A stretch of DNA of 64,000 bases. It comes from Acidobacteriota bacterium. Its GTDB lineage: Bacteria; Acidobacteriota; Vicinamibacteria; Vicinamibacterales; JAFNAJ01. Location of the stretch: positions 71,479 through 135,478 of the forward strand of contig JAHDVP010000002.1 in the NCBI GenBank assembly GCA_023384575.1, written 5' to 3'. Each line of letters begins with the position of its first letter. Position 1 is the first letter of the stretch. Below are positions 44,683-49,270 of the stretch, piece after piece. The notes beneath the pieces are model-generated. The model did no database searches. It was not told where the DNA came from and worked only from the letters and a program-made list of their open reading frames with translations. Position numbers and translations under genes: made by a program.

Positions 44683-46011
44683 TCAGTTCCCGCGAACGAT
44701 CCGCCCCACGCAGCGCCCGAAGCCCAACCCGACCATCCCGGCCCGCTCGCACCGGGCCGTCATCGTCACCTCGTCGCCGTCCTCGAGGAAGCGCCGCACC
44801 TCGCCGGTCGGCAGGGTGATGGGATCCTGTCCGCGCCAGGTGAGCTCGAGCAGGCATCCGCGTGCGTTCTTCTCGGCACCAGACACGGTGCCGCTGGCGA
44901 GCAGATCGCCCGGCCGCAGGTTGCAGCCGTTGCTCGTGTGGTGCGCGATCATCTGCGCGAAGGTCCAGTACATGTCCCGAAGACCGCTCTCGCTGAGCCG
45001 GAGGGGCTCGAGGCCTTCGTCGCGCATCCGGGCGGACTGCAGCCACACTTCGAGCCTGACGTCGATGCCGCCTCGCGTGCGGTGCAGGGGGTGGTCGAGG
45101 TACGGCAGCGGGGCCGGGTCGCCCGCTGGGCGCTCGAAGGGTGCCACGCGAAACGGCTCGAGGGCTTCGAGCGTGACCACCCAGGGCGAGATGGTCGTGG
45201 CGAAGCTCTTGGCCAGAAACGGTCCCAGAGGCTGGTACTCCCACGCCTGCACGTCGCGCGCCGACCAGTCGTTCAGCAGGCAGAGACCCACGGCGTGGTC
45301 CTCCGCTTCGGCAAGCGGCACCGGGTGGCCCAAGGCGTTGCCTGGGCCGACGAACAGCCCGACCTCGAGCTCGTAGTCGAGGCGCTCGGTCGGCCCGAAC
45401 ACGGGCCGGTCGGCGCCGTCGGGCCGCGTCTGGCCGAAGGGGCGCCGGATAGGCGTCCCGCTCGGCACGATGGACGAGGCCCGTCCGTGGTAGCCAATCG
45501 GCACGTACTTGTAGTTGGGCAACAGCGGGTTGTCGGGGCGCATCATGCGGCCGACGTTGGTGGCGTGGAACACCGACGCGTAGAAGTCGGTGTAGTCGCC
45601 GATTGACGCGGGTAGCCCGACCTCGACGTCGACCAGCGCCAGCAGCGACGCCGCCGCCCGCTCGGCGGCCGGGCTGCCGTCGACCAGCAGGCCGTGCAGG
45701 CGCCGCCGGAGCGCGACCCGATGCCGCCGCTCGAGTGCCATGAACGGACCGAGGTCGCTCGCCGCGCACGCCCGCCTCACCTCGTCGGGCACGCGGTCGA
45801 TCAACCCGGCGGCGGCGGCGGCACCGAGGTCGAGCACCTGGCTGCCGATGGCCACGCCGACACGCCACGGGCCCTCGCGTCGCGCCGGTCGGATTCGGCC
45901 GAACGGCAGGTTCTGCAGGGGAAAGTCGGCGTCGTCCTGGTTCGCCGATCCCACCCAGCTGCGACGGGTCGGGTCGTGGGTCTCGTCGAGGACGATGGTC
46001 GGAAGCGTCAT
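44683..46011 (-). CDS. fahA: fumarylacetoacetase
   Basis: 442 residues. N-terminal SH3-like domain and a C-terminal FAH fold. Metal-site and catalytic features include YTDFYASVFHATNVGRMM (with the catalytic His), LDYELEVGLFVGPGN (Glu ligands) and LNDWSARDVQAWEYQPLGPF (Asp ligand). It hydrolyses fumarylacetoacetate to fumarate and acetoacetate, the last step of tyrosine breakdown. Last main gene of the hppD operon, 24 bp after the unknown gene. Confidence 0.96.
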   Translation of the reverse strand: MTLPTIVLDETHDPTRRSWVGSANQDDADFPLQNLPFGRIRPARREGPWRVGVAIGSQVLDLGAAAAAGLIDRVPDEVRRACAASDLGPFMALERRHRVALRRRLHGLLVDGSPAAERAAASLLALVDVEVGLPASIGDYTDFYASVFHATNVGRMMRPDNPLLPNYKYVPIGYHGRASSIVPSGTPIRRPFGQTRPDGADRPVFGPTERLDYELEVGLFVGPGNALGHPVPLAEAEDHAVGLCLLNDWSARDVQAWEYQPLGPFLAKSFATTISPWVVTLEALEPFRVAPFERPAGDPAPLPYLDHPLHRTRGGIDVRLEVWLQSARMRDEGLEPLRLSESGLRDMYWTFAQMIAHHTSNGCNLRPGDLLASGTVSGAEKNARGCLLELTWRGQDPITLPTGEVRRFLEDGDEVTMTARCERAGMVGLGFGRCVGRIVRGN

Positions 46012-46035: not shown

Positions 46036-46986
46036 TCAGAGGGTGAAACCGAGGGCGGTCAACTCGTCGACCGGCTCGTCAAACGAGCACGACCCGAACG
46101 AAAGGGCGAAATCCCGGCGTGCCGCCGTGATCTCGGCGATGCCGATCCGGCCGCCGCGCCAGGCGAGCGCCTCGCCGGTATCGAGAAACGCCGCCGGATC
46201 GCGTTCGTCGAGCATCGCCACGAGCCTCGAGACGAGCCGCTCGCGTCCGGCGGCCCCGAGGCCGTCGCCCCCCGCCGCCGCGAGCGTGGCGTGAGCGAGC
46301 GCAGCGCCCGCGAAGAGGTTCACGAACCCGTGCATCGGCACGATCGGGCTGTCGGGCGCCGCGCTCGTGCGCGCCTCGCGCCTGACCGGGTGATGGAGTC
46401 CGGCGGTGGCCTTGAACGCGACGCCTGCCAGCAGGGTGCCGGCCACCGCATCGGCGAGCACCGCCGACGACGGGAACGCGTCGGCGGTGAGACCTCCCGT
46501 GCGGAACTTCACCCCCGCTCCGGCGGCTCGGGCGGCGGCGAGCAGCGAGTCGAACGGCCCCGTCAGCGGGAGCTCGCAGGCGAGCGCCAGCGCCGGCGGC
46601 GCGGCCGCCCCGAGCGCCGCGACATCAGCGGCCGTCGTCACCTTCACTTCGAACGCGTCGACGACCGCGTGCGTGCCATGACGTACGTTGAACGTGCGGA
46701 TGCGTTCGACGTCGGCGGCAGGCTCACCGCCGCCGAGGGCGGCGATCCGCCAGCGCGGCCCTTCGTCCCGGGTCGACCACTGGGCGGCCGCCGTGGCGAC
46801 GAGCTCGTCGAGACGCGCCACTGGCACGACGAATCGCCCGAGCATCCAGGCCGCCGCCTCGCGTCGATGCCGGGCGTACTGTTCGACGGCCCCGGCCATG
46901 TCGAGCCCCGCGGGAGGAAACAAGCCGGCGTAGTCGACGATGCCGGCAAGCAGCGCGCGGAGCGCGCGACCTGACCCCCGGCTCAC
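46036..46986 (-). CDS. unknown protein of the homogentisate operon
   Basis: 316 residues from a GTG overlapping the hmgA stop codon (GTGA). I do not recognise the family. Alternating hydrophobic strands and helices such as ALALACELPL, GAGVKFRTGG, GVAFKATAGLHH and MHGFVNLFAGA look like a beta/alpha barrel: K-F-R-T-G at one strand and K-A-T-A-G-L-H-H at another resemble phosphate- or carboxylate-binding ends. No signal peptide. Position between hmgA and fahA, where maleylacetoacetate isomerase (maiA) is expected, makes an isomerase role an attractive guess, but nothing in the sequence resembles the glutathione-transferase-type MaiA. Confidence 0.75.
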   Translation of the reverse strand: MSRGSGRALRALLAGIVDYAGLFPPAGLDMAGAVEQYARHRREAAAWMLGRFVVPVARLDELVATAAAQWSTRDEGPRWRIAALGGGEPAADVERIRTFNVRHGTHAVVDAFEVKVTTAADVAALGAAAPPALALACELPLTGPFDSLLAAARAAGAGVKFRTGGLTADAFPSSAVLADAVAGTLLAGVAFKATAGLHHPVRREARTSAAPDSPIVPMHGFVNLFAGAALAHATLAAAGGDGLGAAGRERLVSRLVAMLDERDPAAFLDTGEALAWRGGRIGIAEITAARRDFALSFGSCSFDEPVDELTALGFTL

Positions 46987-48146
46987 CGCGCCGCCTCGGC
47001 CCACGAGCGGTAGTAGTCGGGATCCTCGATGGCGAGCGCGGCCGTGCTGACCCTGAGCGGCCGGAACGTGTCGACCATCACCGCCAGTTCGTCGGTCGCC
47101 TTCTGGCCGAGCGACTGCTCGGTGCGGCCGGGATGCGGCCCGTGGGGGACACCATCCGGGTGAAGCGTGACCGAGCCGTACTCGATACCCTTGCGGCTCA
47201 TGAACTCCGACGACGCGTAGTACAGCACCTCGTCCGACATCACGTTCGAGTGATTGTAGGGCACCGGCACGGCCTCGGGATCGAAGTCGTACGGCCGCGG
47301 GCAGAACGAGCAGACGACGAACCCGTCGCTCTCGAACGTCTGGTGAATCGGTGGCGGCAGGTGCACGCGCCCCACGCGCGGCTCGAAGTCGTGGATGTTG
47401 AAGGCCCACGGGTAGTAGTAGCCGTCCCACCCGACCACGTCGAACGGGTGGTGGTCGAGCACGACCTCCACGAGCTGGTGGTCCTTCTTGACGACGAGCC
47501 GGAACTCCCCCGATTCGTCGACGACGGGCAGCGTCGCCGGACGGCGGATGTCGCGTTCCGAGAAGGGCGCGTTCTCGGTGAGCTGCCCGTGCTCGTTGCG
47601 ATAGCGTTTCGGCGTGCGGACGTACCCCGTGCTCTCGATCACGAGGCACCTGAGCGGCGTCGAGCCGAAGCGGTACCGGTGGAGGATCCCGCGCGGGATC
47701 ACGAGGTAGTCGCCGGCGCGAAACGCCAGCTCGCCGAACTGCGTCTCGAGCACGCCCTCGCCATCGCTGACGTATACGACTTCATCACCCTGAGCATTCC
47801 GGTAGAAGTAGTCGTCTTCCCGTTCGGGCTGGGCAAACGACAGGGCGCAGTCGCCGTTGAACAGGAGCGGGATGCGGTCGGCCGTCAGGCTCCCCCCCGG
47901 CGCGAGGCGTCCCGTCCGGAAATGGCGGTGCCGGAATGCCGGGGTGGTGTCGACCTGCCAATCGAGGGCCTTGAGCAACCGCACGTGACGAACCTGCGTC
48001 GGGTGTCGCAGGTGATACACGAGCGACGAGGGGCCGACGAAGCCCTTGTTGCCGACGAGCTCCTCGTAATAGAGCTTGCCGTCGGAACGTCGGAAGACGA
48101 TGTGGCGCTTTCTCGGGATCGAGCCGAGCTGATGGTAGATGGGCAT
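46983..48146 (-). CDS. hmgA: homogentisate 1,2-dioxygenase (short bacterial form)
   Basis: 387 residues, shorter than the eukaryotic enzyme of about 445. Cupin strands include GDEVVYVSDGEGVLETQFGE and DYLVIPRGILHRYRF. The iron site region is YNHSNVMSDE (297-306) with His299, and a later LHPDGVPHGPHPG matches the second histidine ligand region. It opens homogentisate to maleylacetoacetate with oxygen. Starts 35 bp after hppD. The acidic position after MS is Asp-Glu rather than Glu-Phe as in the human enzyme, typical I think of this shorter group. Confidence 0.92.
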   Translation of the reverse strand: MPIYHQLGSIPRKRHIVFRRSDGKLYYEELVGNKGFVGPSSLVYHLRHPTQVRHVRLLKALDWQVDTTPAFRHRHFRTGRLAPGGSLTADRIPLLFNGDCALSFAQPEREDDYFYRNAQGDEVVYVSDGEGVLETQFGELAFRAGDYLVIPRGILHRYRFGSTPLRCLVIESTGYVRTPKRYRNEHGQLTENAPFSERDIRRPATLPVVDESGEFRLVVKKDHQLVEVVLDHHPFDVVGWDGYYYPWAFNIHDFEPRVGRVHLPPPIHQTFESDGFVVCSFCPRPYDFDPEAVPVPYNHSNVMSDEVLYYASSEFMSRKGIEYGSVTLHPDGVPHGPHPGRTEQSLGQKATDELAVMVDTFRPLRVSTAALAIEDPDYYRSWAEAAR

Positions 48147-48181: not shown

Positions 48182-49270
48182 TCAGAGGTTGCCGCGGAGG
48201 GCCTGCTCGCGTTCGATGGCTTCGAAGAGCGCCTTGAAATTGCCCTTGCCGAACCCGCGGCTGCCCTTGCGCTGGATGATCTCGAAGAACACGGTCGGCC
48301 GGTCCTGCACGGGCTTCGTGAACAGCTGCAGGAGATAGCCCTCCTCGTCGCGGTCGACGAGGATGCCGAGCGACCGGATCGTCTCGATGGCCTCGTCAAT
48401 CTCGCCCACCCGGCCGGGCAGCAGGTCGTAGTAGCTGTCGGGCACCGCCAGGAACTCGACGCCGTTGGCGCGGAGGGTGCGAATCGTGGTCTCGATGTCG
48501 GCCGTCAGCATGGCGACGTGCTGCACGCCCGCTCCGCGGTAGTACTCGAGGTACTCGTCGATCTGGCTCTTGCGGCGTCCGGCCGCCGGCTCGTTGATGG
48601 GGAACTTGATGGCATACGCGTTGTCGGACATGACAATCGACATGAGCGCGCTGTACTCGGTCGAGATGTCCTTGTCGTCGAAGCTGATGAAGCGCGAGAA
48701 CCCCAGCACGCGGCTGTACCATTCCGCCCACTCGTTCATGCGGCCGAGCTCGACGTTGCCGACCATGTGGTCGATGCGCAGCAGGCCGGCCTCGCGTCCC
48801 GGCACGACCCGCGCCTGATACCCGGGCAGAAACGGCCCGCGGTACCCGGCATCGGCAATGAACGAGTGGATGGTGTCGCCGTAGGTCCCGACGGCCGAAC
48901 GGCGCACCGTGCCGTGGGTATCGGTGAGGTCGTGGGGCTCGACGACCCCCACCGCACCCCGGGCCACCGCCTCATGGAAGGCGGCGTCGGCGTCATCGAC
49001 GAGAAACGCGATGTCACGCACCCCGTCGCCGTGCCGCAGGACGTGTTCCGCCATCGGCCCCTCCGGGCCGAGCGGCGTCGTCAAGACGATTCGGGCCTTC
49101 CCCTGCTCGAGGGCATACGAGGTGCGGTCGCGCCACCCGGTCTCGAGGCCGGCATAGGCGAACTGCGAGAACCCGAACGCCTGCCGGTAGTAGTAGGCCG
49201 CCTGCTTGGCGTTGCCCACCCAGAACTCGACGTGGTGGATGCTCCGCAACCTGAGGGGATTGTCCGGCAT
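48182..49270 (-). CDS. hppD: 4-hydroxyphenylpyruvate dioxygenase
   Basis: 362 residues. Two vicinal-oxygen-chelate domains; iron ligands H168 (RIDHMV), H251 (GVQHVAM) and E330 (VFFEII). The C-terminal helix [20 protein letters not shown] gates the active site. It converts 4-hydroxyphenylpyruvate to homogentisate. First gene of the operon, with AAGGAG 5 bp upstream of the ATG and a direct repeat GTCATA at one-turn spacing at 49287-49302, a probable regulator site. Confidence 0.97.

Follow-up and report, generated by a model that had tools for sequence, protein, structure and literature searches.

Here, we describe a protein family with a predicted TIM-barrel fold, for which FAM serves as working name of both the family and its 316-aa member encoded in the window (the stretch of 64,000 nucleotides of acidobacterial DNA analyzed in this study). 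FAM is rather likely to act as the maleylacetoacetate isomerase of its operon, with an origin different from that of MaiA and independently of glutathione. This reading draws on the position of the gene in the operon, the absence of MaiA, the linkage to fumarylacetoacetase (FAH), a predicted DERA-like barrel, the pairing of its lysines with those of DERA and a conserved face. Counted against it are genomes which encode FAH but neither of the two proteins, a side branch of FAH-bearing genomes whose FAM lacks Cys300, the weak sequence link to DeoC and the weak Foldseek matches to DERA. We consider FAM as a new family of known fold for a known reaction, and the isomerase role as a candidate function for which genomic context and predicted structure provide good support.

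In the window, the genes are arranged in the order hppD-hmgA-FAM-fahA (Table 1). The initial annotation had placed a 316-residue protein of unknown function at these positions, without naming a strand, ahead of fahA and translationally coupled to hmgA; positions, length and gene order hold. The GTG start codon (46986-46984) overlaps the TGA stop codon of hmgA (46985-46983), so that translational coupling is plausible, and fahA follows downstream after a gap of 24 bases. The three neighboring pathway genes had been named as well, of which two stand without qualification: HPPD exceeds the cut-off of TIGR01263 with 443.9 bits and FAH that of TIGR01266 with 533.5 bits. The hmgA product, however, reaches 71 bits versus a TIGR01015 cut-off of 510.75, while lying above the Pfam HgmA_N cut-off, and is regarded as a putative homogentisate dioxygenase (HGD; 387 aa) of a short, divergent type. 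Similar short dioxygenases in Streptomyces and Rhodococcus carry the labels homogentisate 1,2-dioxygenase or cupin protein.

Table 1. Genes of the operon and codons of conserved FAM residues (window coordinates).
Feature	Position	Strand	Remarks
FAM (candidate maleylacetoacetate isomerase, predicted TIM barrel)	46036..46986 (incl. stop)	minus	GTG start, 316 aa
GTGA overlap of hmgA stop and FAM start	46983..46986	minus	read from sequence
hmgA-like, short divergent homogentisate dioxygenase	46983..48146	minus	Pfam and NCBIfam scans
fahA, fumarylacetoacetase (FAH)	44683..46011	minus	Pfam and NCBIfam scans
hppD, 4-hydroxyphenylpyruvate dioxygenase	48182..49270	minus	Pfam and NCBIfam scans
Lys160 codon (strand 6)	46507..46509	minus	K in 109/109; aligns with DERA Lys167
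Lys192 codon (strand 7)	46411..46413	minus	K in 109/109; aligns with DERA Lys201
Glu113 codon (strand 4)	46648..46650	minus	E in 109/109; place of DERA Asp102 by strand order
Cys300 codon (end of strand 8)	46087..46089	minus	C in 103/109; missing in six FAH-remote relatives

Searches with the FAM protein gave no match in Pfam or among PDB sequences, and nothing beyond noise in NCBIfam. A hit to NF042971 (electron-transfer subunit) in the NCBIfam scan was discarded as noise (E 0.14, far under the cut-off), and the best PDB hits were weak and unrelated, with E 0.18 for the single protein and 0.23 for an 81-member profile. A single scan of 84,980 species genomes yielded at least 522 relatives, the best 80 of which were kept, excluding the window's own locus (L001), and aligned with the window protein to a family alignment of 81 rows; no Pfam family was matched by more than one of these 81 members. 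The identity of 34–48% between the window protein and these best 80 of at least 522 relatives, extending over nearly the full length, rules out a chance open frame. A phage or mobile gene was likewise rejected, as the set of viral_contigs contained no FAM relative; a DeoC scan of the same set gave no match.

By record names, the family spans eight phyla, namely Acidobacteriota, Gemmatimonadota, Planctomycetota, Chloroflexota, Bacteroidota, Cyanobacteriota, Actinomycetota and Bacillota, and the record titles of the scan relatives include Bacteroidota/Chlorobi/Ignavibacteria and Cyanobacteria. Further members are found on plasmid records of Streptomyces, Pseudonocardia, Nonomuraea, Priestia and Kovacikia, and a divergent one, detected by profile, in Rhodococcus. 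Annotated plasmid records of Streptomyces, Pseudonocardia, Rhodococcus and Priestia label FAM as ‘hypothetical protein’. The excerpts available from the open-licence literature, including those of PMC10950700, PMC11012174 and PMC6822483, contain no description of this family or of a glutathione-independent maleylacetoacetate isomerase.

The operon had been noted to lack a recognizable maiA, and the gene is missing from the remainder of the genome as well: a TIGR01262 search of the window's genome, which is rated 100% complete, found nothing at E ≤ 0.001. Based on these profile scans, we rejected the idea that the operon or another part of the genome conceals a MaiA of the GST type, and the FAM protein itself did not match TIGR01262 in the NCBIfam scan. 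Among 38 family-bearing genomes, chosen from the loci of the best 80 of at least 522 relatives, none encodes MaiA over the TIGR01262 cut-off; 34 show no match at E ≤ 0.001, and the remaining four, three of them cyanobacterial, contain lower-scoring GST-like matches. Such sub-cut-off matches (4/38, and 32/197 in the survey of the window's phylum) were scored as not MaiA. In the latter survey, MaiA exceeded the cut-off in a single one of 197 genomes, which carries neither FAM nor FAH over the cut-off. A second survey comprised 296 genomes of the phylum of genome G028, assigned by title (hereafter Bacteroidota) and also holding the Chlorobi member G021; MaiA was found in none of them by a search which listed matches at E ≤ 1e-30 only. 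FAM is hence encoded together with hppD, hmgA and fahA in genomes without MaiA, MaiA being the only isomerase type searched.

A similar picture emerged from 17 plasmid FAH loci, a non-random set with one locus per genus chosen from 119 FAH plasmid records. In the 11 proteobacterial loci, maiA lies beside fahA in five and FAM in none; among six other loci, FAM adjoins fahA in Streptomyces, Priestia, Rhodococcus, Pseudonocardia and Kovacikia, and a Nocardia locus has neither gene nearby. In none of the 17 is fahA adjoined by both. Five proteobacterial plasmids (L160-L163, L168) carry fahA without adjoining maiA or hmgA and with cyclase, VOC or transport genes as neighbors; these fahA genes probably encode paralogues of FAH that belong to different degradation pathways.

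The linkage of FAM to FAH is pronounced. For 63 of the best 80 of at least 522 relatives, FAH is encoded within the fetched locus, and in 61 of these 80 it follows FAM in the same orientation at a distance of up to 807 bp; HGD is present in 18 and HPPD in 17 of the same 80 loci. The HGD co-located with FAM can be of the canonical or the short type (24–28% or 51–75% identity to the window HGD, respectively). FAH is encoded in all 38 chosen FAM genomes, passing the cut-off in 37 and being divided into two fragments in the remaining one. In the sample of the window's phylum (n = 197), FAM occurs in 37 and FAH over the cut-off in 45 genomes (both in 36, FAM only in one, FAH only in nine, neither in 151), and the two genes lie within 5 kb of each other in 30 of the 36 genomes carrying both. 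The corresponding counts for Bacteroidota (n = 296) are 43 and 107 genomes (both in 43, FAM only in none, FAH only in 64, neither in 189), with a distance within 5 kb in 35 of 43. Co-occurrence gave Fisher p values of 9e-30 (window's phylum) and 1e-22 (Bacteroidota), which ignore kinship.

The position of FAM directly before fahA is also found on plasmids of Streptomyces, Pseudonocardia, Rhodococcus and Priestia, the gene of the Priestia megaterium plasmid lying at L108:1186-2199. In two Nostoc loci (L042, L066), hppD and hmgA are divergent to FAM at a distance of approximately 1.1 and 2.2 kb, and FAH is encoded elsewhere in these genomes. Genes for subunits A and B of a CoA-transferase lie behind FAM and fahA in Streptomyces (L107:5658-7039), neighbors which fit the use of acetoacetate released by FAH.

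An AlphaFold2 model based on the 81-row alignment (mean pLDDT 95.7, pTM 0.93) predicts FAM to be a TIM barrel with strands at residues 17-19, 49-55, 79-84, 107-115, 134-138, 158-162, 191-194 and 294-299, where strands 7 and 8 are separated by an additional stretch of about 100 residues. Conservation was assessed in 109 sequences, namely the window protein, the best 80 of at least 522 relatives and 28 more distant ones. Lys160, Lys192, Glu113, Gly220, Asn223 and Pro25 are unchanged throughout, and Cys300, His199 and Arg162 (103/109 each) as well as His198 (102/109) are nearly so. At 28 positions, the residue is conserved in 103 sequences or more; 22 of these positions fall at the C-terminal strand ends, which comprise 88 of the 316 residues (hypergeometric 6e-9), and five at the N-terminal strand ends, which also comprise 88 residues. 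In TIM barrels, the C-terminal strand ends form the face that bears the active site. The initial annotation had suspected an enzyme from barrel-like strands ending in KFRTGG and KATAGLHH; both motifs are among the best-conserved stretches of the family, and the predicted barrel indeed presents a plausible active site.

Structural comparison of the model points to DERA. Foldseek by itself gave weak matches: the best row was a designed barrel (E 4.6e-4), and two such designs ranked above the best DERA, which came third (E 3.1e-3). With VIA-align (999 chains), ranks 1-46 of the best 50 were DERA, DERA-like proteins or designs, these 46 rows showing Z scores of 15.4 to 13.7 and rmsd values of 2.8–3.7 over 184–221 residues; pyruvate kinase followed next after this group (Z 12.9). 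The predicted fold of FAM is hence closest to DERA, although a shared fold shows no function. In DERA, Lys167 is the Schiff-base lysine, and Lys201, Asp16 and Asp102 are further catalytic residues contributing to tuning and proton relay. The two invariant lysines of FAM are spaced by 32 residues compared to 34 between Lys167 and Lys201, a likeness spotted before the VIA-align ranking. They were also paired (Lys160/Lys167 and Lys192/Lys201) in a profile-profile alignment with ten DeoC sequences, one from E. coli, one from the genome of the window and eight from plasmid records. When the columns of the DeoC alignment were shuffled 200 times, the score of 24.3 obtained for this pairing was never reached (maximum 21.8). 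In terms of sequence, the relation is weak: hhalign gave a probability of 2.9% and E 0.016, the global alignment failed, and PF01791 (DeoC) matched none of the 81 FAM members at E ≤ 1.

By strand order, Asp18 (strand 1), Glu113 (strand 4) and FGSC (strand 8) of FAM would be the counterparts of Asp16, Asp102 and FGAS of DERA. At the same time, the two proteins differ in several respects. FAM is about 60–100 residues longer, with the insert between strands 7 and 8; the DERA motif K-P-A-G-G-V-R reads K-A-T-A-G-L-H-H, the sequence of FAM shows GLHH and SCS where DERA has GGVR and ASS with its phosphate site (GG after Lys201, SS after strand 8), and the genomic context of FAM is aromatic catabolism, unlike that of DeoC.

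The earlier proposal of a non-orthologous isomerase is supported by the absence of MaiA, the tight linkage to FAH across phyla that are not related to each other and the predicted barrel with its conserved face, and we keep it as a candidate role. It has to be weighed, however, against FAH genomes with neither FAM nor MaiA over threshold, which account for 9 of 45 in the window's phylum and 64 of 107 in Bacteroidota. Inspection of the surroundings of FAH in all nine of the former and in 20 of the 64 latter genomes revealed no FAM, and in some genomes of this kind a full canonical hmgA adjoins fahA. FAH consequently does not always depend on either protein; the isomerase step can be solved in another way or proceed on its own, and a missing MaiA alone is no proof that another enzyme must exist. 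FAM is therefore at most one solution among several. Two FAH-only loci of the window's phylum (L092, L093) contain hppD, a gene for a 250-aa protein, which we take to resemble phenylalanine 4-hydroxylase, canonical hmgA and fahA in series, with no isomerase gene. A flavin-reductase-like gene (PF01613) adjoins or lies near FAH in 8 of 20 inspected loci from Bacteroidota (L140-L159; e.g., L146:6351-7274); its product is perhaps a further solution to the isomerase step, or else a helper unconnected with it.

The existence of such genomes in both surveys would also agree with an alternative which we regard as unlikely, namely that isomerization proceeds non-enzymatically with cellular thiols and that FAM handles a dead-end side product, e.g., a succinylacetone-like diketone, via a Schiff base. 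A nonenzymatic, glutathione-dependent (thiol-driven) bypass of the isomerase step has reportedly been described in mice, and a lysine pair of the class I aldolase type suits C–C bond chemistry on beta-diketones. An enzyme of this kind would, however, be expected in MaiA-bearing operons as well, whereas FAM fills the slot left open by MaiA, was found beside maiA in no locus inspected and occurs in 38 genomes devoid of MaiA over the cut-off.

With an aldolase as nearest fold and both catalytic lysines aligned, FAM could further be thought of as a lyase or hydrolase performing a retro-aldol or retro-Claisen reaction on maleylacetoacetate or its products, and thus acting beside FAH and not before it. 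We consider this improbable: cleavage of the diketone by FAM itself would render FAH dispensable, but FAH is kept in 36 of 37 (window's phylum), 43 of 43 (Bacteroidota) and 38 of 38 (chosen) family-bearing genomes, and the DERA lysine motif is altered in FAM. Even less probable is a helper of HGD or FAH in assembly, repair or quality control outside the main route, since, although FAM usually adjoins hmgA and fahA or fahA alone, the charged residues conserved around the mouth of its barrel have a catalytic appearance, it occurs with both HGD types and is lacking in the MaiA-bearing operons inspected; for the pathway-quality-control enzyme initially suggested we found no specific support.

Provided that FAM is an isomerase, the chances that it employs a Schiff base appear evenly balanced. 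In such a mechanism, Lys160 on strand 6 would condense with the ketone adjacent to the maleyl C=C bond to give the Schiff base, and Lys192, Asp18 and Glu113 would take the roles of Lys201, Asp16 and Asp102 of DERA in tuning and proton relay. The iminium would weaken the cis C2=C3 bond, to which Cys300 on strand 8 could add reversibly, or a dienamine form could permit the turn; upon rotation of the bond, the trans product fumarylacetoacetate would be released to FAH. The carboxylates would be held by Arg162, His198/His199 and Arg290, and the protein thiol would replace the glutathione used by MaiA.

Maleate cis-trans isomerase and the mycothiol-dependent maleylpyruvate isomerase are other, unrelated solutions for maleyl cis-trans isomerization, the former working through protein cysteines; folds and substrates of both differ from those of FAM. 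To our knowledge, glutathione is mostly lacking in the phyla concerned. MaiA, a zeta-class glutathione transferase (TIGR01262), resembles FAM in being encoded by one gene beside hmgA and fahA and in the presumed reaction, but is unrelated to it, featuring a GST fold with a glutathione site instead of a TIM barrel predicted at a mean pLDDT of 95.7. According to PMC10950700, MaiA requires glutathione for the isomerization of maleylacetoacetate, whereas FAM has its own cysteine in 103 of 109 members. One might speculate that FAM represents another type of maleylacetoacetate isomerase with a wide distribution, in which a DERA-like barrel combines a lysine iminium with its own cysteine and serves bacteria without glutathione, the cysteine-less branch having changed its substrate; in this full form, we hold the proposal as doubtful.

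If the isomerase role is true, it would close a standing gap in homogentisate degradation for many bacteria from soil and other environments and give a name to a family which plasmid records list as hypothetical. It would also represent an aldolase-type barrel converted to a cis-trans isomerase carrying its own thiol and, in the cysteine version, would allow bacteria without glutathione to finish the breakdown of tyrosine and phenylalanine.

The six sequences without Cys300 are exactly those of the Bacteroidota loci L120-L125, which are not near FAH, although FAH is present elsewhere in these genomes. Arg162 and, in most cases, His198/His199 have been lost from them as well, whereas the two lysines, Glu113 and Asn223 are retained. 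Cys300 and its neighbors hence track the linkage to FAH, whereas the barrel core does not. This side branch may act on another substrate; equally, it shows that these genomes cope with maleylacetoacetate in the absence of a canonical FAM member. Members of the side branch (L120-L125, L170-L175) are located in a conserved block with a HemW-like gene, HU-like genes and a gene for a secreted protein, and at this block position, three further loci (L147, L153, L158) seem to carry fahA instead.
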